Positions 2,227-62,742 of a DNA stretch of 64,000 bases are shown here, in pieces. Source of the stretch: Aurantimonas manganoxydans SI85-9A1. Lineage in GTDB: Bacteria; Pseudomonadota; Alphaproteobacteria; Rhizobiales; Rhizobiaceae. The stretch spans positions 3,875,955 through 3,939,954 of the forward strand of contig NZ_CH672387.1 in assembly GCF_000153465.1 (NCBI RefSeq), given 5' to 3'. The position numbers and the translations under genes are program-made. Below the pieces are notes generated by a model, which did no database searches, was not told the origin of the DNA, and was given only the letters and a program-made list of their open reading frames with translations. Every line of letters starts with the position of its first letter. The stretch's first letter is position 1.

Positions 2227-2685
2227 TCAGCGGGCGCCGACAGCCTGATAGACGGACGGACCGCCTTTGCCACCGAAGCCGTAGACGTCGTAGCGGGCGT
2301 CCGGGTCGTCGCCCATGCCGGGCGAGCCCATCGGCATGCCCGGTGCCGACAGGCCGGCCAGGGCGGGACGCTCGGCGAGGAGCCGGTCGATCGCATCCAT
2401 CGGCACATGGCCCTCGATGACATAGCCGTCGATCCTGGCCGTGTGGCACCCTTCCATCGCCGCCGGCACCTTCGCCGCACGCTTGATCGGGGTCAGTTCA
2501 TCGGTGTTCGTGACGGTGACGTCAAAGCCATGCGCGCGGGCAATGTCCGTCCAGGCCTCGCAGCAGCCGCAGGTCGGCGACTTCCAGACCGACATGTGCC
2601 GGTCGGCATGATCGGCCTTGGCCGCCAACGTGCCCAGCACGAGCAGTCCGGCCGATACCGCGAGCGGGAGGATGGTCTTCGTCAT
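2227..2685 (-). CDS. Exported DUF411 metal-binding-type protein
   Basis: A 152-residue protein with a signal peptide (MTKTILPLAVSAGLLVLG, cleavage near AKA) followed by a DUF411 domain: MSVWKSPTCGCCEAW carries a CGCC cysteine cluster, and ACHTARIDGYVIEGHVP-like segments follow (here GCHTARIDGY, IEGHVP). The cysteine cluster suggests periplasmic metal binding; DUF411 genes are often near copper resistance genes, but none is seen here. I chose the internal ATG because AAGGACAG lies just ahead of it and it opens directly into the signal peptide; an upstream ATG at 2709 would add eight polar residues. Confidence 0.88.
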   Translation of the reverse strand: MTKTILPLAVSAGLLVLGTLAAKADHADRHMSVWKSPTCGCCEAWTDIARAHGFDVTVTNTDELTPIKRAAKVPAAMEGCHTARIDGYVIEGHVPMDAIDRLLAERPALAGLSAPGMPMGSPGMGDDPDARYDVYGFGGKGGPSVYQAVGAR

Positions 2686-2765
2686 AAGTCGCCTGTCCTT
2701 GCCTGACATCCGTATCGCGGGTTGGTCCCTACGATACGGAAAAGCGTCGGCGGGCTTTGTGGCGA

Positions 2766-3494
2766 TCAGATGGTGTCGCCGACGTCCTGCGGAGCGGCGT
2801 CCGCCTCGGCCTTGGCGGCAGAAGCCTTCGGCCCGCCCTTGGACACGCCGACCATGGCCGGGCGCAGCACGCGCTCGCCAATGGCATAGCCCGCCTGCAC
2901 GACCTGCAGGACGGTGCCGTTCGGCACTTCGGTGTTCGGGATCTCGAACATCGCCTGATGGAAGTTCGGATCGAAGCGCTGGCCTTCCGGGTCGAGCTTC
3001 CTGACGCCGTGCTTCTCCAGCGTGCTGATCAGCGACCGCTCGGTCACCTCGACGCCGTCGATGAGACCGGCCAGACCACCCTCGCCATCGGCCTTGGCTT
3101 CGGCCGGCACGGCTTCCAGCGCGCGGCGCAGATTGTCGGCGACCGACAGGATCTCGCGGGCAAAGCCGGTCACCGCGTAGGTGCGCGCATCTTTGACCTC
3201 GCGCTCGGTCCGCCGACGCAGGTTCTCCATGTCAGCGGCCAGCCGCAGCAGGCGATCCTTGACGTCGGCGTTCTCGGCTTCCAGCGCGGCGATGCGCTCG
3301 GCATCAGCGCTGGCCGCCGCATCGGCGTCGGCAAAGCCGCTGGCGGCGTCCGCATAGCCGCTGCCCTCGGCATTGGCATTGGCCGCCGCACGCCGCGCCT
3401 CGGCCTCGCTCGCCGGGTCGGCGCGATCGCGGGCGGCCGGGTCAGATGCCCGGTTGCGGGCTTCGTCGTGTTCGCGCTTGCCGGTATCGCTCAT
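2766..3494 (-). CDS. grpE: Nucleotide exchange factor GrpE
   Basis: GrpE releases ADP from DnaK during chaperone cycling. The 242-residue protein has an Ala/Asp-rich disordered head (about 1-75), a long coiled coil (about 76-140, [20 protein letters not shown]) and the beta domain with signature motifs [28 protein letters not shown] and the C-terminal [29 protein letters not shown] precedes the ATG at good spacing. It follows hrcA on the same strand with a 120-base gap, the usual alphaproteobacterial pairing. I see no CIRCE element in front of it. Confidence 0.97.
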
Positions 3495-3614
3495 GCGTCA
3501 TCACCTCGTGTCGGGGCCTGGCTGCACAAGTCCGCGGTGGGGGTCCCCACGCGAACCGCGCAGCGCGGCGTAAAATCGTTGTCGCGCCGCATATCGAATT
3601 GACGGGACGGAAAA

Positions 3615-4724
3615 TCAAGCCTCGCGGGCGGCCGCGCCGGAGGTCAGAAGCCGCGATACGATGCGCGCGGTGTAGTCCACCATCGGCACGATGCGCTTGT
3701 AGTTGAGCCGGGTCGGGCCGATCACGCCGACCGCGCCGATGACGCTCTCGCCGCCGCCCTGATATGGGGCGACCACCAGCGAGGATCCGGACAGCGAGAA
3801 CAGCTTGTTCTCCGACCCGATGAAGATCCGCACGCCATTGCCCTTCTCGGCAAGGCCGAGAAGTTCGATGATGCCGCTCTTGGTCTCCAGATCGTCGAAG
3901 AGCAGGCGCAGCCGTTCGATGTCCTCGGAGGCGGTGACGTTCTCCAGGAGATTTGCGCGACCACGCACGATCAGCCGCGCCGGCTGGTCGGCCGAGGCGC
4001 CGGACCAGACCGCCAGCCCCTTTTCGACGAGCTGGCGCGACAGGAGGTCGAGGGCACTGGACGTGTTGTCCTTCAGCCGGGCGATCTCCTCGCTCGCCTC
4101 GCCCAGCGTGCGGCCGACGATATGGGCGTTGAGGAAGTTTCCGGCCTCGACAAGCTGCGAGGCGGTGACGCCGGCCGGCAGGTCGAGAATGCGGTTCTCC
4201 ACCTCGCCATTGGCGCCGACCAGCACCGCCAGCGCCCGTGTGGGCTCCAGCCGGATGAACTCGATATGCTTGAGGCGCAGATCGGCCTTTGAGGTCAGTA
4301 CGATGCCGGCGCCGCGCGACAGGCCGGACAGGAGCTGGCTCGCCTCGGTCAGAAGCGATTCGAACGGGCGGCCGTCGCCCGACACGCGCACTTTCTCCTC
4401 GATCTCCTCGCGCTCGGACGAGCCTAGATCGCCAACCTCCAGAAAGGCGTCAACGAAGAAGCGCAGGCCCAGTTCGGTCGGCATGCGTCCGGCGCTGACA
4501 TGCGGCGCATAGATCAGGCCGAGCGCTTCCAGATCGCTCATCACGTTGCGGATCGAGGCCGGCGACAGCGCGTTGGTCAGGAGCCGCGACAGCATGCGCG
4601 AGCCCACCGGCTCGCCGATATCGAGATAGCTCTCGACGATCAGCCGGAAGATCTCCCGCGAGCGCTCGTCCAGCGGCAGTGCTCCGGAAGCCAAATCGCT
4701 GACAGGCAAACGGAATTCAGTCAT
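3615..4724 (-). CDS. hrcA: Heat-inducible transcription repressor HrcA
   Basis: HrcA represses groESL-type heat-shock operons by binding CIRCE operators, with GroEL as cofactor. The 369-residue protein begins with a winged-helix domain ([66 protein letters not shown]) and continues into the GAF-like dimer domain ending in [21 protein letters not shown]. The reading frame extends 56 codons further upstream, but that segment overlaps the leader region of rph and lacks family similarity, so the ATG before EFRLPV is preferred. Divergent from rph. Confidence 0.95.
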
Positions 4725-4962
4725 GGCGTCGCATCGTTTCCCGCATGACCGGACTATAGGGAATGCACGGGCCCTCGCCAAGCCGTCCGGCCGCGATAGC
4801 CCTCCGCGCAGGCGTGTTTCCGGCCGATCTTCCGCCATCGCGCGGCGCCCCGCCATGACGGCGACGCGAAAATCTTTGATCCGCCGGGTCATCGCCGATA
4901 CAAGCCCGGCGCAACCCGAAGCATCTATTCCCTTCTCCAGGACCGATTGTCAGGACCTCATC

Positions 4963-5688
4963 ATGCGGCCATCCAAACGCGCCTTCGACGAATTGCGGCC
5001 CGTCAGCCTCGAGCGGAACTACTCCCGTCACGCCGAAGGCTCGTGCCTCGTCCGGTTCGGCGACACCCATGTCCTGTGCACGGCGAGCCTTGAAGAGCGC
5101 GTGCCGGGCTGGCTGAAGAACTCCGGCAAGGGCTGGGTGACGGCCGAATACGGCATGCTGCCGCGCGCCACGGGCGACCGGATGCGCCGCGAGGCGGCGT
5201 CCGGCAAGCAGTCGGGCCGTACCCAGGAAATCCAGCGTCTCGTCGGCCGCAGCCTGCGCGCCGTCGTCGACCTGCAGGCCCTGGGCGAGCGCCAGATCAC
5301 CGTGGATTGCGACGTCATCCAGGCCGATGGCGGCACCCGCACGGCGGCGATCACCGGCGGCTACGTGGCACTGGCCGACTGCCTCGCCTGGATGGGCCAG
5401 CGCGCCATGGTCGATCCGGCCAAGGTGCTGAAGGACCACGTCGCGGCGATCTCCTGCGGCATCTACAAGGGCGAGCCGGTGCTCGATCTCGACTACCCGG
5501 AAGATTCCGCCGCCGAGACCGACGCCAATTTCGTCATGACCGGCGCCGGCGGCATCGTCGAGATCCAGGGCACCGCCGAGGGCACGCCGTTTTCGCAGGA
5601 CGAGTTCCTCAAGCTCCTCGATCTCGCCCGCAAGGGGATCAACGATCTCGTCGGCATGCAGCGCCAGGCCATCGAGGCCGCGCAATGA
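4963..5688 (+). CDS. rph: Ribonuclease PH
   Basis: RNase PH is a phosphorolytic 3'-5' exoribonuclease that trims tRNA 3' ends. The 241-residue protein starts [14 protein letters not shown] and carries the hallmark motifs [67 protein letters not shown] and DLDYPEDS. The open frame continues upstream, but this start gives the normal family length and N-terminus. It overlaps rdgB by ATGA, indicating translational coupling in an rph-rdgB-hemW operon divergent from hrcA. Confidence 0.97.
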
Positions 5689-6329: not shown

Positions 6330-7522
6330 CGATCCATTCCCGCCCAGGCCGTGACGTCCTTGCCTTCGAGCCGCAATCGCGCGCGCCGGGGTTCGGCGTC
6401 TATGTGCATTGGCCGTTCTGCGCGGCCAAATGCCCGTATTGCGACTTCAACAGTCATGTCCGGCACAAGCCGGTGGACCAGGAGCGCTATGCGGCGGCCT
6501 TCGAGCGGGAACTGGCCGAGATGGCCCGCCGCTCGGCGGGCGAGACGGTCACCTCGATCTTCCTCGGCGGTGGTACGCCGTCGCTGATGGAGCCGGCGAC
6601 GGTCCGCCGGATCCTCGATGCCGTGGCCGCCAACTGGACGATCGCCGACGGCGCCGAGATCACGCTGGAGGCCAATCCGTCGAGCGTCGAGGCGGAGCGG
6701 TTCCGTGGCTATCGCGAGGCCGGCGTCAACCGGGTGTCGCTCGGCGTGCAGGCGCTGAACGATCGCGACCTTCGGCTGCTGGGCCGGCTGCACAGCGTCG
6801 ACCAGGCGCTGCACGCCATCGGCCTTGCCCGCGAGATCTTCCCGCGCCTGTCCTTCGACCTGATCTATGCCCGGCCCGACCAGACCGTCGCGGCCTGGGA
6901 GAGCGAGCTGAACCAGGCGATCGATCTGGCCGCCGATCATCTGTCGCTCTACCAGCTTACCATCGAGGAGGGCACGCCCTTCTACGCCCTGCACAAGGCA
7001 GGCAAGCTGATCGTGCCGGATGGGGATCTGTCGGCCGACCTCTACGAATCCACCCAGCGGATTACCGCCGAACGCGGCCTACCGGCCTACGAGATCTCCA
7101 ACCACGCCGTCCCCGGCGCCGAGTCCCGCCACAACCTGACCTACTGGCGCTACGGCCTCTATGCCGGTGTCGGCCCCGGCGCCCATGGCCGGCTGATGGG
7201 TCCGGGCGGGCGCCACGCCATCTCCAACGAACCGCTGCCGGAAACCTGGCTGAAGATGGTCGAATCCTGGGACAGCGGGGCGGTGGTCGATGACTTGCTG
7301 AGCCCGACCGAGCAGGCCGACGAATTGCTGCTGATGGGCTTGCGCCTGACCGAGGGCATCGACCTGAAGCGCTGGCGCAAGCTGACCGGCCGCGACCTCG
7401 ATCCGGTCAGCGAGGCGGACCTGATGGCCCACGGCATGGTGGAACGCCTCGGTCCCGACCGGCTGCGGGCAACGCCTGCCGGCATGCTCGTCCTCGACGC
7501 GGTGGTCGCCGACCTCGCTTGA
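6326..7522 (+). CDS. hemW: Radical SAM heme chaperone HemW
   Basis: HemW is a heme-binding radical SAM protein related to coproporphyrinogen dehydrogenase HemN and thought to deliver heme to membrane cytochromes. The 398-residue protein has [18 protein letters not shown], that is CX3CX2C, the HemW-type 4Fe-4S site with the diagnostic Phe after the third Cys. It also has [43 protein letters not shown], and the C-terminal HemN_C region ([20 protein letters not shown]). Third gene of the rph-rdgB-hemW run, joined by ATGA. Confidence 0.95.
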
Positions 7523-7593
7523 GCGAGCATCACGGTCGACAGCACAACCGGTCGGCGATAAAATCGCGTCGCTATCAGCAGGAGCGCCTGACG

Positions 7594-7875
7594 ATGACGC
7601 GCAACAACACTCCGGTTCTGGTCGATCTGGGCCAGCAGCGTGCGAGCCTCGACGCGCATCTTGAAAGCGGCGATCTCTCCGATGCCAGCGACGTGATCCG
7701 CGCCGGACTTCGGGCGCTGGATCGCGAGGCCGCAGGACGGGACGCGGTTGTAAAGGCCGGGATCGAACTCGCTCTCGACGATCCCCGACCGTCCCGCCCT
7801 GCCCGCGATGTCTTCGATCGTTTGCGCGACAAGCAAGGCGCGAGGGCCAAGCGAACGGGCCCGGATGCGGCCTGA
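7594..7875 (+). CDS. parD: ParD/CC2985-type antitoxin
   Basis: A 93-residue antitoxin of the ParD family. The N-terminal ribbon-helix-helix part binds DNA and autoregulates; DLSDASDVIRAGLRALDREA is the characteristic antitoxin helix. The C-terminal, Arg/Asp-rich tail should wrap the toxin. AGGAG lies 9 bases before the ATG. The 3' end overlaps the toxin gene by 11 bases, the classic antitoxin-first arrangement. Symbol assigned by family only. Confidence 0.88.
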   Translation: MTRNNTPVLVDLGQQRASLDAHLESGDLSDASDVIRAGLRALDREAAGRDAVVKAGIELALDDPRPSRPARDVFDRLRDKQGARAKRTGPDAA

Positions 7876-8191
7876 GATCCGGTTTCATCCGCTTGCGGAA
7901 GAGGATCTCGATGCCATCGACGACTTCGTCGCCCTCCACAGCCCGTCAGGTGCCCGGCATCTCGTCGAACGCGTCGAACGCGTCGAAAACGCGGTTGAAC
8001 GGCTTTCGCGGTTTCCGGACAGTGGCAGACGACGAGACGATCTTGCGGCTGGGATCAGGACGCTTGCGATCGACCGTACCCTTCTCCTCGCTTATCGGAT
8101 CGAGCACGATCACATCGTTATCCTGCGGATTTTCTATGCGGGACGCGACTTCGACGGCGATCTGCGCGAAGACAGCCTCGAACCTCTCTGA
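7865..8191 (+). CDS. parE: ParE/RelE-superfamily toxin
   Basis: A 108-residue toxin of the RelE/ParE fold. Motifs are IRFHPLAEEDLDAIDDFV at the N-terminus, VERLSRFPDSGRRRDDLAAGIRTLAID in the middle, and the C-terminal strand LLLAYRIEHDHIVILRIFYAGRD, all characteristic of ParE-type toxins that poison DNA gyrase (ribosome-dependent mRNA cleavage is the RelE alternative). I chose the ATG that overlaps the antitoxin end by 11 bases; a longer start inside the antitoxin gene is less likely. The pair sits between hemW and rsmI and may be a horizontally acquired insert, although base composition is similar to its neighbours. Confidence 0.88.
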   Translation: MRPEIRFHPLAEEDLDAIDDFVALHSPSGARHLVERVERVENAVERLSRFPDSGRRRDDLAAGIRTLAIDRTLLLAYRIEHDHIVILRIFYAGRDFDGDLREDSLEPL

Positions 8192-8206
8192 CAAAGTTGC
8201 GTGCGA

Positions 8207-9106
8207 ATGACACAGACTGACGAGCCCGCCCGCCGCTATCGCATCCGCGATGTGGCGCATACGGCGCCGAAGCCGGAGCCGGGCCTCTATCTGGTGGCGA
8301 CGCCAATCGGCAATCTCGGCGACGTGACCCTGCGCGGGCTGGAACTCATCGCGGGAGCCGATCGCCTCGCCTGCGAGGATACGCGCGTCACCGCCAAGCT
8401 GCTGCATCGCTTCGGCATCGAGCGCCGGATGTTCGCCTATCACGAGCACAATGCCGAAGATGCCAGCGCCGCGCTCCTCGCCGATCTGCAGGCCGGCCTG
8501 TCGGTGGCGCTGGTCTCGGACGCCGGAACACCGCTGGTGTCGGACCCTGGCTACCGGATCGTCCAGGAGGCGATTGCGGCCAGGATTCCCGTCGTGCCGA
8601 TCCCCGGCGCCTCGGCGGCCCTCGCCGCGCTGCTCGCCTCGGGCCTGCCGTCCGACGCCTTCTTCTTTGCCGGCTTCCTGCCGCAGAAGGAGCAGGCGCG
8701 CGCGCAGCGGCTGGAAGAACTCGCCCGCATTCCCGGCACGCTGGTCTTCTTCGAGGCCCCGCACCGGATCGCCGACAGCCTCGCGGCCATGGACCAGGCC
8801 CTCGGCGCGCGTCAGGCCGCCGTCTGCCGCGAACTGACCAAGGCGTACGAGACTATCTATCGCGGCACGCTGGGCGACCTCGCCGCAGAGTTCGCGGGCA
8901 TGGAACGCGTGCGCGGCGAGATCGTCGTCTGCATCGCGCCGCCCGACGCGCCGCCGGTGGCGAGCGAGGCCGATGCCGACGCGATCCTGTCGGGTCTGCT
9001 GGCGGAGATGAAGCCGACCAAAGCGGCGCAGGAAGCGGCCCGGCTGACCGGCCTCGGGCGACGCGACCTCTACCAGCGCGCCCTCGCCCTCAAGGGCCGG
9101 CAGTGA
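8207..9106 (+). CDS. rsmI: 16S rRNA (cytidine(1402)-2'-O)-methyltransferase RsmI
   Basis: RsmI 2'-O-methylates C1402 in the ribosomal decoding centre using SAM. The 299-residue protein belongs to the tetrapyrrole-methylase fold: [76 protein letters not shown] and FFEAPHRI are all family signatures. A GTG six bases upstream is an alternative start. The last codons overlap yraN by GTGA, giving the conserved rsmI-yraN pair. Confidence 0.96.
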
Positions 9107-15474: not shown

Positions 15475-15984
15475 TCAGCGGCCCTTGGCGGTCAGCAGCG
15501 CGCGGTTGAATTCGCGCGCGAAGCTCTCGCGGTCGTCGGGATTGAGAAACCCGCCGATCTCGGTGGAGGCGGTCTTGGAATCGACGCTCATCCGGGTGAT
15601 GCCGATCTCGTCATGCCGGTCCACCTTGAACCGTGCCCAGAACGGGTTGTGATGGGTCTCGCGGACCTCGCCGCGCGGCGAGATCTTGCGGATCGCCAGG
15701 TCGGTCCGGGACACGGTGACCAGTTCGCGTGCCCTGGCCGAGCGGTAGCTGGCGCGAAACGCCCACCAGATCAGCAGCACGTCGACGCCGAAGAAGCCGA
15801 AGACCGGCCAGGCGCCCTTGGCGACGAAGGCGATGCCGGTGACGAGGCTGACCCCGCCGACAAAGGCCATGAGGATGTTGAAGCCGCGCCGGCCGAGCGA
15901 GCGGTAGGGCGTCAGCAAGGCCTCGAAGATCGGCCGTTCCGACGCGGCGTCGGCCTGACCTGTGCCATCGCGATTGTCAGTCAC
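15475..15984 (-). CDS. DUF2244 domain-containing membrane protein
   Basis: A 169-residue inner-membrane protein of the DUF2244 family. LTPYRSLGRRGFNILMAFVG opens the family domain, two transmembrane helices follow (about 36-56 and 60-78), and the cytoplasmic part has RELVTVSRTDLAIRK and NPFWARFKVDRHDE. DUF2244 genes commonly sit divergent to nth in alphaproteobacteria, as here with a 25-base gap. Translation probably begins at a GTG. The biochemical role is not known to me. Confidence 0.88.
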   Translation of the reverse strand: MTDNRDGTGQADAASERPIFEALLTPYRSLGRRGFNILMAFVGGVSLVTGIAFVAKGAWPVFGFFGVDVLLIWWAFRASYRSARARELVTVSRTDLAIRKISPRGEVRETHHNPFWARFKVDRHDEIGITRMSVDSKTASTEIGGFLNPDDRESFAREFNRALLTAKGR

Positions 15985-16009
15985 GGCGTCGTCTCGCTAT
16001 AGGGCAACG

Positions 16010-16810
16010 ATGAGCGACAAGATTGGACCATCCGGCCAAGGGGTCAAGCGCGGCAAAAGCGACGCACCGCCGCGCACGGCCAGTGCCAAGCGTCCGGCCA
16101 AGGCGGCGACGCGTCGCCCGGCCCGGCCGCGCCGCGTGAAGATTCCCTATTCGCAAGAGGAGATCACCGAGATCTTCCGGCGCTTCTCGGTGCAGCGGCC
16201 CGAGCCCGTGTCAGAGCTCGCCTACACCAATCCGTTCACGCTACTGGTCGCCGTCGTCCTGTCGGCGCAGGCGACCGATGCCGGCGTCAACAAGGCAACG
16301 CGCGAACTGTTTCGCGTCGCCGACAATGCAGCCGCCATGGCGGCGCTGGGCGAGGATGCGATCCGCGAGCATATCCGCACCATCGGGCTCTATCGCAACA
16401 AGGCAAAGAACGTCGCCGCCCTCGCCGAGACGCTGGTGGCGCAGCATGGCGGGGAGGTGCCCGGCGACCGCGCCGCGCTAGAGGCCCTGCCCGGCGTCGG
16501 CCGCAAGACCGCCAGCGTCGTCCTCAACGTCGCCTTCGGCGAGGAGACGCTGGCCGTCGACACCCACATCTTCCGGATCGGCAACCGGTTGAAGCTGGCG
16601 CCCGGCGCAACGCCCGAGGCGGTGGAACAGGGCCTGCTGCGGATCATCCCGCAGCCCTACCGCCGCCATGCCCATCACTGGCTGATCCTGCACGGCCGCT
16701 ATGTCTGCAAGGCGCGCAAGCCGGACTGCGAGGCCTGCGTCATCGCCGATCTCTGCAAGGCCGAGATCAAGACGAACGACGTTCCGGCGCCGCTGCATCC
16801 GATCCCCTGA
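16010..16810 (+). CDS. nth: Endonuclease III
   Basis: The canonical Nth: a bifunctional glycosylase/AP lyase that removes oxidised pyrimidines in base-excision repair. The 266-residue protein has a basic N-terminal extension (about 1-45, rich in Lys, Arg and Ala), then LLVAVVLSAQATDAGVNKAT, the hairpin LPGVGRKTASVVLN with catalytic Lys, VDTHIFRIGNRL with catalytic Asp, and the iron-sulfur motif CKARKPDCEACVIADLC. AGGG lies 5 bases before the ATG. Its 3' end overlaps the convergent CysZ-like gene by 44 bases. Confidence 0.96.
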   Translation: MSDKIGPSGQGVKRGKSDAPPRTASAKRPAKAATRRPARPRRVKIPYSQEEITEIFRRFSVQRPEPVSELAYTNPFTLLVAVVLSAQATDAGVNKATRELFRVADNAAAMAALGEDAIREHIRTIGLYRNKAKNVAALAETLVAQHGGEVPGDRAALEALPGVGRKTASVVLNVAFGEETLAVDTHIFRIGNRLKLAPGATPEAVEQGLLRIIPQPYRRHAHHWLILHGRYVCKARKPDCEACVIADLCKAEIKTNDVPAPLHPIP

Positions 16811-58977: not shown

Positions 58978-59916
58978 ATGGCGAGCGAAACGACGACGAC
59001 GGCCTCTCTTCTGCAGGACGAATTCGAGAAGATCCTCTCCGCCTGGATGAAGGCCCAGGCCAAGGAAGGCGTCAAGCGGACCGATCTGGTCTCGGCGAAA
59101 GAGACCGAGCGCCAGAGCCGGGACCTCCTGACCGCGCTGGCGCGGTCCAGCCAGACGGCGGCCACCGACGCCAGCTTCGACTTCGCCAATCCGGGCTGGG
59201 ACCCGGTCCGCGACGCGATCGAGGAGATCACCGAGAGCCGCACCCAGCGCGGCGTGACGCCCTCGGAGATGGGCTGGTTCATCGCCTCTCTCAAGCAGCC
59301 GCTGTTCGACCATCTGGCCGCCGATCTGGCCGAGAAGCCGAAGCAGATGAGCGCGGAGCTGTGGAACACCACCCGCATGGTCGACCAGATCGTGCTGCAG
59401 GCGATCGAGTCGCTGGTGTCGAAACGCGAAGCCGTCATCGAGCGCCAGCGCGAGGAAATGACCGAGGTTTCGGCGCCGGTGGTCAAGATCTGGGACCGCA
59501 TCGTCACGGTGCCGCTGATCGGCACGCTGGATTCCTTCCGCGCCCAGACGGTGATGGAAAACCTCCTCGACGCCATCGTCCAGTGGGAAGCCGAGGTCGC
59601 GATCATCGACATCACGGGCGTGTCCACCGTCGACACGCTGGTCGCCCAGCATCTCCTGAAGACCGCCGCGGCCGTCCGCCTGATGGGCGCCCACTGCGTG
59701 ATCTGCGGCATCCGCCCGAAGATCGCCCAGACGGTGGTCAATCTCGGCGTCGAGCTGCCGAACATCACCACCCGGGTCGATCTGCAGAGCGGCCTCGCCT
59801 ACGCCTTCGAGCGGATCGGCGTCTCCCCCAAAGGAGCAGTGACGGGTGGAAGCCTCGGTTGGAACCACCCCGATCGTCACGATCACCGGCTGCGTCATCG
59901 TGGCGATCCGCGATGA
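58978..59916 (+). CDS. rsbR: Stressosome scaffold RsbR-like STAS protein
   Basis: A 312-residue protein like RsbR. The N-terminal part (about 10-155) is helical (RsbRD_N-like: FEKILSAWMKAQAKEG, MGWFIASLKQPLFDHL) and would project as a sensory turret; the C-terminal STAS domain (about 165-285) has AIIDITGVSTVDTLVAQHL and GIRPKIAQTVVNLG. The two Thr residues phosphorylated by RsbT in Bacillus RsbRA (T171, T205) align with T220 in VDTLVA and T252 in IAQTVV. AGGACAGGCAAGG lies upstream. Its end overlaps rsbS by 71 bases; the last 25 residues may be outside the domain. Confidence 0.93.
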   Translation: MASETTTTASLLQDEFEKILSAWMKAQAKEGVKRTDLVSAKETERQSRDLLTALARSSQTAATDASFDFANPGWDPVRDAIEEITESRTQRGVTPSEMGWFIASLKQPLFDHLAADLAEKPKQMSAELWNTTRMVDQIVLQAIESLVSKREAVIERQREEMTEVSAPVVKIWDRIVTVPLIGTLDSFRAQTVMENLLDAIVQWEAEVAIIDITGVSTVDTLVAQHLLKTAAAVRLMGAHCVICGIRPKIAQTVVNLGVELPNITTRVDLQSGLAYAFERIGVSPKGAVTGGSLGWNHPDRHDHRLRHRGDPR

Positions 59917-60214
59917 CCTGGACGATCACGACATCCTGGCCCTGCAGGACCAGCTGGTCGAGGAGGTGTCCCGCAAGAACGCCGTCGGCGTGATCATAGA
60001 CATCGGCAGCCTGGAGATCGTCGACACCTTTGCCGGCCGGATGCTGGGCGCCATGGCGCAGATGGCGCGGATGATGAACGCCCGCACCGTCGTCGTGGGC
60101 ATGCGCCCGGCCGTCGCCATGACGCTGGTCGAGCTGGGCATGACGCTCGAGGGCGTCGAGACGGCGCTGAACGCCGATCGGGCGATCAACCTGATCCTGG
60201 GCGAGCGGAACTAG
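59846..60214 (+). CDS. rsbS: Stressosome core protein RsbS-like STAS domain
   Basis: A 122-residue single STAS domain like RsbS, the other scaffold component. GVIIDIGSLEIVDTFAGRML aligns with the Bacillus RsbS region whose Ser59 is phosphorylated; here that residue is Thr (T61). Other conserved parts are TGCVIVAIRDDLDD and VVVGMRPAVAMTLVELG. The start is a GTG with AAAGGAG at 9 bases, inside the last codons of rsbR. rsbT starts 10 bases after its stop. Confidence 0.93.
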   Translation: MEASVGTTPIVTITGCVIVAIRDDLDDHDILALQDQLVEEVSRKNAVGVIIDIGSLEIVDTFAGRMLGAMAQMARMMNARTVVVGMRPAVAMTLVELGMTLEGVETALNADRAINLILGERN

Positions 60215-60224
60215 GCGCCGTTTC

Positions 60225-60629
60225 TTGGCTGAGAGCGATCTGACCGTCACGCTGTCGCGCCCGAGCGACGTCGCCTTCGCGCGCCAGGCCGCGATGCAGG
60301 CGATGACGTCGATCGGCGCGAGCGCGATCAAGAAGACGAAATTCGTGACTGCGGTCTCGGAGATCGCGCGCAATGCGATCGTCTACGGCCATGGCGGCAG
60401 AATCTCTTTCGAGATCGTGGGGAACGGCTCGCAGCGCCGCGTCGTTGCGGAGTGCACGGACAGAGGGCCCGGCATCGCCGACGTCAATCAAGCCTTGAAG
60501 GACGGCTTCAGCACCGGCAAGGGCCTCGGCCTGGGCCTCAGCGGAGCGCGGCGCCTGGTCGACCGGTTCAAGATCACGTCGTCGTCCGATACGGGCACGA
60601 CCGTCATATTGGAGTGCGCGTGTCGATGA
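60225..60629 (+). CDS. rsbT: Serine/threonine kinase RsbT-like (GHKL ATPase)
   Basis: A 134-residue GHKL kinase like RsbT, which phosphorylates RsbR and RsbS and, once released, activates a partner. VTAVSEIARNAIVYGHGG is the N-box with E47 and N50, CTDRGPGIAD is the G1 box (D79), and GKGLGLGLSGARRLVDRF is the G2 box. The start looks to be TTG, since there is no nearer ATG or GTG that keeps the domain. Its stop overlaps the start of the next gene (ATGA). Confidence 0.9.
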   Translation: MAESDLTVTLSRPSDVAFARQAAMQAMTSIGASAIKKTKFVTAVSEIARNAIVYGHGGRISFEIVGNGSQRRVVAECTDRGPGIADVNQALKDGFSTGKGLGLGLSGARRLVDRFKITSSSDTGTTVILECACR

Positions 60630-61627
60630 TCTCACTGCCGATCCTGGAAACAAGTCAGATCGGCGCCGCGCGCAGACGAGCCCTGCAGGAAGCCGAGACG
60701 ATCGGCCTGGCCGAGGATGATCGCGACCGTCTGGCGCTGGTCGTCACCGAAGCGGGCACCAACCTCCTGCGCCATGCCACCGGCGGCGAGATCCTCCTGT
60801 GCCCGCATCAGGGCAAGAGCACGGCCGGCATGGATGTCATCGCCCTCGACGACGGCCCGGGCCTGCCGAATGTCGAAGCGGCCATGGCCGACGGCTTCAC
60901 CACGGCTGGGGAAGGCGAGCGCAGCCTCGGCAGCGGCCTTGGCGCCATGGCCCGGATGTCGGACGGCCTCGACATCTACAGCGACAGCCGCGGCACCACC
61001 CTGACGGTCAACATCGGCAAGACCGGCCGTGCGGCCAGGGGGCCGATGGAAACCGCCGGCCTGATCGTGCCCAAGCCCAGCTTTGATGCCGGCGGCGACA
61101 TCCACGGGATCCGCAAGGATGGCGGCGCCACGATGATCATGCTGATGGACGTGCTCGGTCACGGGCCAACCGCCGCCAAGGACGCCGAGACCGGACTGGC
61201 CGCGTTCCTCGCCGCCAAGGGCAAGTCGCTGGAGGACACCGAGATCTTCGTCGCGGACGCCATGGCCGGCAGCCGCGGGGCGGCGTCGCTGATCGTCGAA
61301 CTGCCCCATGGCAGCGACAGGCTGCGGGCCCTCGGCCTCGGCAACATCAAGGGCGAGATCATCTCGGCCGACGGCAGCCGCCACGGCATCCCCTCCTCGC
61401 CCGGGATCGTCGGCGCCTCGACCCGCCGGCCCCGGGTCACCGAACACGCATGGGGAAAGGGCGCCATGCTGCTCCTCACCACCGACGGCCTGAAGGGCGG
61501 CGAGCGCTTCCCCGAACCGTCCGCCCTGTTCTACCGCGACGTCCTGACCATCGCGGCAACGCTTTACAAGCGGCGCCGGCGCGGGAGCGACGACAGCGGT
61601 GTCGTCATCGCGCGGGCCCGCCAATGA
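60626..61627 (+). CDS. ATPase-domain/SpoIIE-type phosphatase
   Basis: A 333-residue protein with two domains. Residues about 1-135 are a GHKL ATPase-like fold (LVVTEAGTNLLRHATGGEIL, LDDGPGLPNVEA, LGSGLGAMARMSD). Residues about 150-333 are a PP2C/SpoIIE-like phosphatase with DVLGHGPTAAKDAE (metal Asp) and the final GSDDSGVVIARA. It probably dephosphorylates RsbR/RsbS, as RsbX does in Bacillus, and might have kinase-like ATP binding. A GTG six bases upstream has a closer GGAG. Overlaps both neighbours by ATGA. Confidence 0.88.
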   Translation: MISLPILETSQIGAARRRALQEAETIGLAEDDRDRLALVVTEAGTNLLRHATGGEILLCPHQGKSTAGMDVIALDDGPGLPNVEAAMADGFTTAGEGERSLGSGLGAMARMSDGLDIYSDSRGTTLTVNIGKTGRAARGPMETAGLIVPKPSFDAGGDIHGIRKDGGATMIMLMDVLGHGPTAAKDAETGLAAFLAAKGKSLEDTEIFVADAMAGSRGAASLIVELPHGSDRLRALGLGNIKGEIISADGSRHGIPSSPGIVGASTRRPRVTEHAWGKGAMLLLTTDGLKGGERFPEPSALFYRDVLTIAATLYKRRRRGSDDSGVVIARARQ

Positions 61628-62742
61628 AAGCCGTCGTCACCTCGATCAATCTCGAGCAGGATGCGGATGTCTCGCATACCCGCCGCACAGCCCGGCTGAT
61701 TGCCAAGGTCGCCGGGGCGCCGGCCCGCGACCAGATCCGCTTCGCCACGGCCGTCTCCGAGATTTCCCGCAACGCCCTGCAATACGCCAAGGGCGGCGTC
61801 ACCGAATTCGCCTTCGACCGCAGCTCCAAGATCACCCGGCTGATGGCGCGGGTGCAGGACAAGGGCGGTGGCATCGCCGCGGTCGAGACCATGCTGCGCG
61901 GCCGTCACCAGTCTCATACAGGCCTCGGCCTCGGCCTGAGCGGCTCGCAGAAGCTCGTCGACGATTTCGACCTGAAGACCGGCTCGGGCGGCACCGTCAT
62001 CACGCTCGGCCTGCAGCTCTCCACGACGAAGCGCCCCGAGGAACTGGCGGTGGCCACCGCCTCGGCGCTGGTGGAGGCGAGCCACGGGTCGCCGATGGAG
62101 GAACTGGCCGAGCAGAACCGCGCGCTGCGCGATTCGCTCGCCGAGCAACAGTTCCTGCTGCGCGAACTGCATCACCGCACCAAGAACAACCTCGCCATCA
62201 TCCAGTCACTGGCGATCATGCAGGCGCGCCAGGCGACCACCGAGGAGACGCAGGATGCGCTGTCGGTGCTGACCAACCGCATCCAGGCCTTCGCCAACGC
62301 CCACAATTTCCTGCACCGGGCCGAGGACGTCACCCAGGTCGACCTGCAGCAGCATCTGGAAAGCCTGACCGACCGGCTGGCATCGGCGATGGGCGATCAC
62401 CAGCTCACCATCACCTGCAAGGTCGATGCCGTGCCGGTCGCCTTCGACACCGCCACCGAGCTCGCCCTTATCGTCAACGAGCTGGTCACCAACGTCACCA
62501 AGCACGCCATGCAGGCGGGCCAGACCAAGGGGCGCGTCACCATCGAGGCGCATCAGTCCGACGGCACGCTGCATCTGCGGATCGCCGACGACGGCGAGGG
62601 CCTGGCCGATGCCGAGACGGTGCTGCGCAATTCCAAGTCGCTCGGCTGGCGGATCGTCGAGGGCTGCGTGCGCAAGCTCAACGGCACGATAGACGTGGAC
62701 GGCAGCGACGGGCTCGCCATCTCCCTGACCTTCCCGATCTGA
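61624..62742 (+). CDS. Histidine kinase: RsbT-like domain fused to HisKA_2/HATPase
   Basis: A 372-residue protein. Residues about 1-135 are a second RsbT-like GHKL domain (TAVSEISRNALQYAKGG, VQDKGGGIA, GLGLGLSGSQKLVDDF) strikingly like rsbT upstream. Residues about 155-372 are a HisKA_2 histidine kinase: coiled coil, LRELHHRTKNNLAIIQSL with the phospho-acceptor His (about H184), the N-box ALIVNELVTNVTKHA, and ADDGEGLA. No membrane helix is present, so it is cytosolic. HisKA_2/HWE kinases are the type that feed the PhyR general stress response in alphaproteobacteria; no phyR is in the window. Confidence 0.9.
   Translation: MKAVVTSINLEQDADVSHTRRTARLIAKVAGAPARDQIRFATAVSEISRNALQYAKGGVTEFAFDRSSKITRLMARVQDKGGGIAAVETMLRGRHQSHTGLGLGLSGSQKLVDDFDLKTGSGGTVITLGLQLSTTKRPEELAVATASALVEASHGSPMEELAEQNRALRDSLAEQQFLLRELHHRTKNNLAIIQSLAIMQARQATTEETQDALSVLTNRIQAFANAHNFLHRAEDVTQVDLQQHLESLTDRLASAMGDHQLTITCKVDAVPVAFDTATELALIVNELVTNVTKHAMQAGQTKGRVTIEAHQSDGTLHLRIADDGEGLADAETVLRNSKSLGWRIVEGCVRKLNGTIDVDGSDGLAISLTFPI

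Follow-up and report, generated by a model that had tools for sequence, protein, structure and literature searches.

A 64,000-nucleotide stretch of DNA from Aurantimonas manganoxydans SI85-9A1 (contig NZ_CH672387.1, positions 3,875,955 to 3,939,954), hereafter called the window, carries between positions 58978 and 62742 five tightly packed open reading frames (ORFs), all on one strand. They encode homologues of the stressosome proteins RsbR, RsbS and RsbT (R, S and T), a phosphatase (X) and a histidine kinase (K), arranged as follows:

58978..59916, + strand: rsbR, an RsbRD_N sensor domain followed by a STAS domain
59846..60214, + strand: rsbS, one STAS domain; GTG start
60225..60629, + strand: rsbT, HATPase_c_2, the free STAS kinase; TTG start
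60620..61627, + strand: X (rsbX-like), an RsbT-family HATPase_c_2 domain joined to a SpoIIE/PP2C phosphatase that retains the conserved Asp residues
61624..62742, + strand: K, an RsbT-family domain (KN), a linker helix, a HisKA_2 phospho-acceptor domain (His184) and HATPase_c
61624..62016, + strand: KN (K residues 1-131), an RsbT/SpoIIAB-type domain
62164..62742, + strand: catalytic core of K (residues 181-372 and stop), HisKA_2 and HATPase_c

The junctions between neighbouring genes measure -71, +10, -10 and -4 bases. The long overlap of rsbR and rsbS arises because an additional base carries the frame beyond the usual stop: compared with three relatives, the window has one extra A at 59830-59832, near the end of rsbR, and the gene is 25 codons longer than in a near-identical relative, where it stops at the TGA corresponding to window positions 59840-59842. 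The extra A is either a sequencing error or a harmless variant. As the same five genes recur in the same order in relatives whose K is as little as 29% identical, chance can be excluded, and the five-gene operon R-S-T-X-K is real and old. A simple scan of the operon revealed neither a sigma-70 promoter nor an intrinsic terminator.

Pfam searches assigned RsbRD_N (9e-20) and STAS (2e-15) to RsbR, STAS (4e-10) to RsbS, HATPase_c_2 (1e-12) to RsbT, and HATPase_c_2 (9e-12) together with SpoIIE (3e-6) to X. Against PDB sequences, RsbR matched the RsbR chain of 7b0u (E 1.5e-32, best stretch residues 143-276) and RsbS the RsbS chain of 6qcm (E 1.6e-24), both Listeria proteins. Judged by these sequence matches, R and S of the window are true stressosome proteins, and the operon composition that the original prediction had proposed is borne out by ORFs, Pfam and PDB matches. 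The residues expected to carry the signal are also in place. RsbR Ser186 and Thr220 align with positions 175 and 209 of Listeria RsbR, and RsbS Thr61 aligns with Ser56 of Listeria RsbS; each of the three is conserved in 29 of 29 alignment rows (among the rows, L011 and L020 represent one contig). Thr175 of Listeria RsbR is presumably a phosphosite. RsbS Ser56 and RsbR Thr209 are given as Listeria phosphosites in PMC9237128. The equivalents of the SpoIIAB kinase residues Glu46, Asn50 and Asp81 are present in all 64 RsbT domains compared, and each PP2C aspartate of X in at least 29 of 30 rows, the one gap being due to a gene truncated by its contig end. A PHROGs scan gave no match for X and only kinase-core matches for K.

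For the kinase, Pfam detected HisKA_2 (7e-19) and HATPase_c (9e-20), plus two HATPase_c_2 stretches. Residues 1-131 constitute the RsbT-family domain KN, which was absent from the original prediction and which a long helix joins to the kinase core. In the core, His184 is conserved in 30 of 30 rows, as are H183-H184-R185 and N188-N189, and residues 159-370 match the NCBIfam PhyK model at 2e-31, with a score of 109 bits relative to a cut-off of 750. K gave no match to RsbU_N at E 0.1, and on this ground we rejected an action of RsbT through an RsbU_N receptor within K. Since phmmer returned nothing for K residues 1-159 among PDB sequences at E 0.01, we used fold searches. For the AlphaFold model of KN (predicted local distance difference test score, pLDDT, of 88), the 11 best PDB matches were SpoIIAB chains and chains of RsbV-RsbW complexes, followed by EL346. 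The model of whole K (pLDDT 84; predicted template modelling score, pTM, 0.50) comprises KN, the helix and then a single helix, residues 157-203, holding the phospho-acceptor histidine; given the pTM value, the placement of the domains is uncertain. Its best solved match was EL346, a LOV histidine kinase of Erythrobacter, with Brucella LOV-HK at ranks 9 and 13.

To place KN among its relatives, we built a tree of 164 RsbT-family domains, comprising KN, the ATPase domain of X (X-N) and RsbT itself, with SpoIIAB as outgroup. All 44 KN formed one clade (support 0.995), as did all 56 X-N (0.925), and 54 of the 64 RsbT grouped together (0.817). Two loci (L180, 3659-4132; L183, 3695-4108) carry an additional, separate RsbT-like gene in front of a bare PP2C gene; the additional RsbT-like proteins adjoin the X-N clade and resemble an unfused X. 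In SpoIIAB, Arg20 makes contact with the STAS protein, Glu46 acts as catalytic base and magnesium is bound by Asn50. Of the 44 KN, 42 retain the position of Arg20, 44 that of Glu46, 42 that of Asn50 and 44 that of Asp81.

We then asked how tightly K is tied to the stressosome genes. A scan of species genomes with two kinase-core motifs yielded 93 candidate loci. Among the 80 best, 26 matched K over its full length and 54 only from residue 107 onward. The arrangement R-S-T-X-K was found at 25 of the 26 full-length loci, the contig of the remaining one (L022) ending inside X, and the window, L012 and L013 show it as well. In contrast, the DNA flanking the 54 core-only loci gave a match to R, S, T, X or KN in none. 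The hosts of full-length K include Aurantimonas, Mangrovicella, Lutibaculum, Consotaella, Salipiger, Alloyangia, Phaeobacter, Sulfitobacter, Roseibium and Pacificimonas. K of the window shares 99% identity with its counterpart in Aurantimonas coralicida DSM 14790. In Phaeobacter inhibens DSM 17395, a strain in laboratory use, the operon (PGA1_RS18475-18495, with rsbT, X and K as PGA1_RS18485, 18490 and 18495) lies on plasmid pPGA1_262. These counts bear out the original claim of a coupling between a stressosome and a HisKA_2 kinase. They also make it hardly credible that K is an operon passenger acting independently of the stressosome, the more so as the neighbourhoods differ among loci and K itself carries an RsbT-family domain. 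When ORFs of at least 90 residues around 28 HisKA_2-type loci were surveyed, the only neighbours recurring at four or more of them were generic ABC-transporter (11/28) and SDR (4/28) genes; a shared neighbour as the output gene was rejected accordingly.

The operon is rare. A single-sequence search with K in 385 alphaproteobacterial genomes found two full-length K, including that of the window, and an RsbS profile added three genomes with KN-HisKA_2 kinases (G095, G205 and G348) that this search had overlooked, giving at least 5 of 385 genomes. By profile search, RsbS of this type occurs in 13 of the 385 alphaproteobacterial genomes and in 23 of 398 Pseudomonadota genomes.

RsbS-profile hits also revealed what else can follow a stressosome module. 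Besides the window and G331, we typed 31 such loci with profiles built from the sequences of this analysis, which would overlook further kinase classes and output types. Downstream of RST and the phosphatase, a histidine kinase was present at 28 loci and none was found at three. KN was carried by 14 of the 28 kinases (partial in L171 and cut at a contig end in L190); at the loci of the 14 others, X was fused to an ATPase domain in nine cases and was a bare PP2C phosphatase in five. Overall, KN occurred at 14 of 25 loci with an ATPase-fused X and at none of the six with a bare PP2C. One kinase lacking KN, that of L184, bears RsbU_N instead (RsbU_N-HisKA). At L164-L166, L169, L173, L175, L177 and L179, RSTX precedes a KN-less HisKA kinase, and after this comes a protein combining a receiver (REC) domain with a histidine kinase, in part with a second REC; the HisKA kinase of L164, the sole one of that group scanned, has no RsbU_N. 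Stressosome modules with kinases thus also occur outside alphaproteobacteria, and the original idea of a stressosome re-plumbed to a kinase in an alphaproteobacterium holds for the coupling itself, which is neither confined to this class nor new, kinase-containing modules being described in PMC9237108.

KN was found fused to HisKA or HisKA-REC cores, after X, on plasmids of Sphingomonas, Deinococcus and Paraburkholderia and in several other genomes. As the domain precedes HisKA, HisKA-REC and HisKA_2 alike, KN is an adapter that stayed constant while the kinase cores were exchanged. When R, S, T and X of 55 loci were concatenated for a tree, the 31 KN-HisKA_2 operons grouped as a single clade (support 1.0) within the KN-HisKA operons, with a support of 0.988 for the node uniting all KN operons and of 0.65-0.74 for intermediate nodes. 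In a tree of KN alone, the two kinds were more mixed and the inner support was weak. The simplest history would be a single swap of a HisKA core for HisKA_2 with KN retained, and KN seems to have been lost at L191. Two further loci are of interest with respect to kinase architecture. L188 encodes a REC-HisKA_2 protein (4584-5633) after a KN-HisKA-REC-REC kinase, a possible clue to the exchange of cores, and in Paraburkholderia L128 the ORFs for KN-HisKA (7393-8409) and HATPase-REC (8387-9052) overlap, the kinase being split or frameshifted.

HisKA_2 kinases can feed the PhyR-NepR-EcfG response, the output favoured by the original prediction. The genome of the window has one NepR match, with PhyR and an EcfG-like sigma factor encoded beside nepR, so that all three components are present, along with 10 HisKA_2 matches. 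A link to K came from genome G348, in which a full PhyR (PhyR_sigma2 3.5e-22, PhyR_sigma-like 2.8e-12, receiver 4.8e-15), 43% identical to Aurantimonas PhyR, is encoded directly upstream of rsbR. A search of 82 genomes of the order to which G348 belongs placed full-length K, among the matches listed, only in five genomes of its own genus. The order phyR-R-S-T-X-K is shared by all five, with a gap of 15-16 bases between phyR and rsbR, and apart from the operon phyR (48.6-53.5 bits) none of these genomes has a strong PhyR match, the next one reaching at most 32.4 bits. The proposed PhyR output thereby gains support from another genus, and for Aurantimonas PhyR would be the likely target. Regulatory genes were seen near other operons, too. 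In Salipiger (L032), a single-domain receiver gene (4669-5046) lies about 300 bases upstream of rsbR; in Alloyangia (L025), a similar receiver (2640-3008) and a HisKA-REC hybrid kinase (3130-5247) are encoded upstream of rsbR and on its strand. A motif search in these receivers neighbouring rsbR returned nothing. In Mangrovicella (L019), a gene for an EcfG-like sigma factor (15748-16287), 37% identical to that of the window's genome, lies about 6.6 kb downstream of K.

Based on these observations, we propose the following wiring. RsbR and RsbS would build a STAS core that holds RsbT and, via KN, also K. As long as they are unphosphorylated, the STAS proteins would dock KN, and K would be kept off or in one activity state. 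Upon stress, RsbT, the free switch kinase, would phosphorylate RsbS at Thr61 and RsbR at Ser186 and Thr220. The phosphorylated core would then let KN go, the long helix of K would repack and the HisKA_2 core would autophosphorylate. K would pass the phosphate to PhyR, which would take NepR off the sigma factor EcfG, whereas X would reset the core by stripping the phosphates from the STAS proteins. The sequences themselves show the gene set, the conserved catalytic and acceptor residues, the RsbT/SpoIIAB character of KN, its strict association with RSTX, the exchanged cores behind it and, in one genus, the order phyR-rsbRSTX-K; from these we infer docking, sequestration, the direction of control and the choice of PhyR in Aurantimonas. 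The original prediction had RsbT binding the kinase, or the phosphatase relaying the signal; because K has its own RsbT-family domain, it is simpler to let K dock on the STAS core than to assume either route, and X looks like a resetting phosphatase. Control of K through KN, be it by the STAS core or by RsbT, is in our judgement probable. For the full model, in which the core sequesters K via KN and release triggers the PhyR-EcfG response, our confidence is more modest, with the balance tilting slightly in its favour.

The conserved residues of KN bear on two other ways of connecting K to the stressosome. Freed RsbT might bind KN and thereby switch the kinase, KN taking the place of an RsbU_N receptor instead of docking on the STAS core. 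RsbT-family domains may pair, as SpoIIAB and RsbW dimerise, and the RsbU_N-HisKA kinase of L184 illustrates that kinases serving as RsbT receptors exist; RsbT is also the messenger in Bacillus, according to PMC12143880. However, KN retains the Arg/Glu/Asn set with which SpoIIAB engages ATP and the STAS protein, residues superfluous in a simple receptor, and we regard this route as improbable. Alternatively, KN could be an active STAS kinase, so that K phosphorylates RsbR and RsbS as a feedback, with the histidine kinase part regulating this feedback and not an output. Although the ATP-binding and catalytic motifs are intact in nearly all KN, such an operon would be left without an output gene, and the kinase core with its invariant His184 is itself intact, making the feedback role very unlikely.

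Several observations weigh against sequestration of K by the core and signalling to PhyR. Ten of the 64 RsbT fall outside the main RsbT clade; three of these adjoin KN, six lie near X-N with weak support and one stands alone. The ATP lid of KN is shorter than that of RsbT, and the domain may no longer be active. The adjacency of phyR is one evolutionary event, and PhyR was encoded at none of the 33 other K loci, for most of which 5 to 8 kb per side, and for some less, were covered. In Alloyangia L025, the place of PhyR ahead of rsbR is taken, at 65-107 bases, by the HisKA-REC hybrid kinase. PhyR was present in all 29 K-bearing genomes searched (L017 and L022 not included), but as it is common in alphaproteobacteria, this co-occurrence is weak evidence. 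NepR was recovered from 12 of the 15 genomes searched, including 11 of 13 K-bearing ones, and its match was weak (26.8-29.5 bits) in the genus with phyR in the operon. Finally, in 33 regions (28 upstream of rsbR and five upstream of phyR), a strict EcfG-type motif occurred in none (0.5 expected) and a loose one in three (1.2 expected). On these counts we rejected membership of the operon in the EcfG regulon; the strict motif is present just upstream of phyR in the window's genome.

The points concerning PhyR also touch the possibility that K, while under stressosome control via KN, hands its phosphate in most species to a single-domain receiver or another regulator. The window's genome has 58 receiver-domain matches (57 above cut-off), KN-HisKA relatives often bear their own receiver or precede hybrid kinases, and a receiver in Salipiger as well as a receiver and a hybrid kinase in Alloyangia lie upstream of rsbR. 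Against this, in the KN-HisKA_2 operons inspected no regulator other than PhyR abuts rsbR, which PhyR does in five genomes at a distance of 15-16 bases. We consider a different main target unlikely, though an alternative to be taken seriously, and favour PhyR.

Stressosome-kinase modules as such belong to published knowledge (PMC9237108), and what appears to be new is the fusion of an RsbT-family domain to a kinase and the link to PhyR. Neither was found in the open-licence literature searched, although the Pane-Farre 2005 review of RsbRST outputs may describe some fusions. The passages and abstracts consulted of PMC4976288, PMC7522486, PMC9237128, PMC3999984, PMC5964349 and PMC12148442 contain no mention of an RsbT-like domain in a kinase or of a stressosome feeding PhyR, and we found no open-licence paper pairing Phaeobacter with a stressosome. 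The K variant is of interest because it supplies both a physical wire and a plausible target. For stressosome signalling outside Bacillales, a kinase with a built-in RsbT homologue offers a direct, testable answer; the gene order phyR-rsbRSTX-K names a likely target, and with KN held constant while kinase cores change, the family is a natural example of modular rewiring. The operon suggests that two stress-response machines from different bacteria have been joined in one wire through K's own switch domain. If true, two textbook general stress responses, the sigma-B stressosome and PhyR-EcfG, have been spliced together. In its general form, the idea holds that KN kinases are RsbT paralogues fused to exchangeable cores, that the stressosome stores and releases a two-component kinase, and that in alphaproteobacteria the HisKA_2 core makes the stressosome a PhyR-EcfG sensor; this we put forward tentatively, as a little short of an even prospect.

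Compared to the RsbRST-RsbU/sigma-B pathway of Bacillus, the operon is alike in the phospho-acceptor positions of its RsbR, RsbS and RsbT system and in having a PP2C-type phosphatase, but RsbU, RsbV, RsbW and SigB are not encoded beside it. This agrees with the original statement that no rsbU, rsbW or sigB is seen, which on the genome scale we can extend to RsbW, no separate copy being seen, RsbU_N and SigB not having been searched for genome-wide: among 19 HATPase_c_2 matches in the window's genome, only RsbT, X-N and KN span nearly the whole profile, the other 16 being partial, as would be expected of histidine kinase catalytic domains. The Bacillus output is replaced by a histidine kinase into which an RsbT-family domain is built, and X has an extra ATPase domain. 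The RSTX modules of Heinz et al. 2022, including VvD1/VvD2 of Vibrio vulnificus (PMC9237108), resemble the operon in that RST and a phosphatase are followed by a kinase, and in their several output types. As presented in that paper, and unlike the window operon, they have a globin-type RsbR and an RsbX of one domain, while some of their kinases bear RsbU_N and others do not. The text of its section 10 makes no mention of an RsbT-like domain in a kinase or of a HisKA_2/PhyR link; for the Vibrio system, the authors report there that they failed to show RsbT interacting with the kinase encoded downstream. Outputs of the kinase, GGDEF or phosphatase type, in some cases with RsbU_N, are covered there and discussed in PMC12143880. 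The RsbU_N-fused histidine kinases and diguanylate cyclases treated in the latter (Moorella; Quin 2012 cited there) likewise place an N-terminal stressosome-facing domain on varied cores; these enzymes carry an RsbT receptor, whereas K carries an RsbT homologue. HWE/HisKA_2 general stress kinases such as PhyK, LOV-HK and EL346 share the catalytic core of K, but have a PAS, LOV or membrane domain where K has its RsbT-family domain. Relative to the STAS kinases SpoIIAB, RsbW and RsbT, KN is alike in fold and catalytic residues and differs by its fusion to a histidine kinase.

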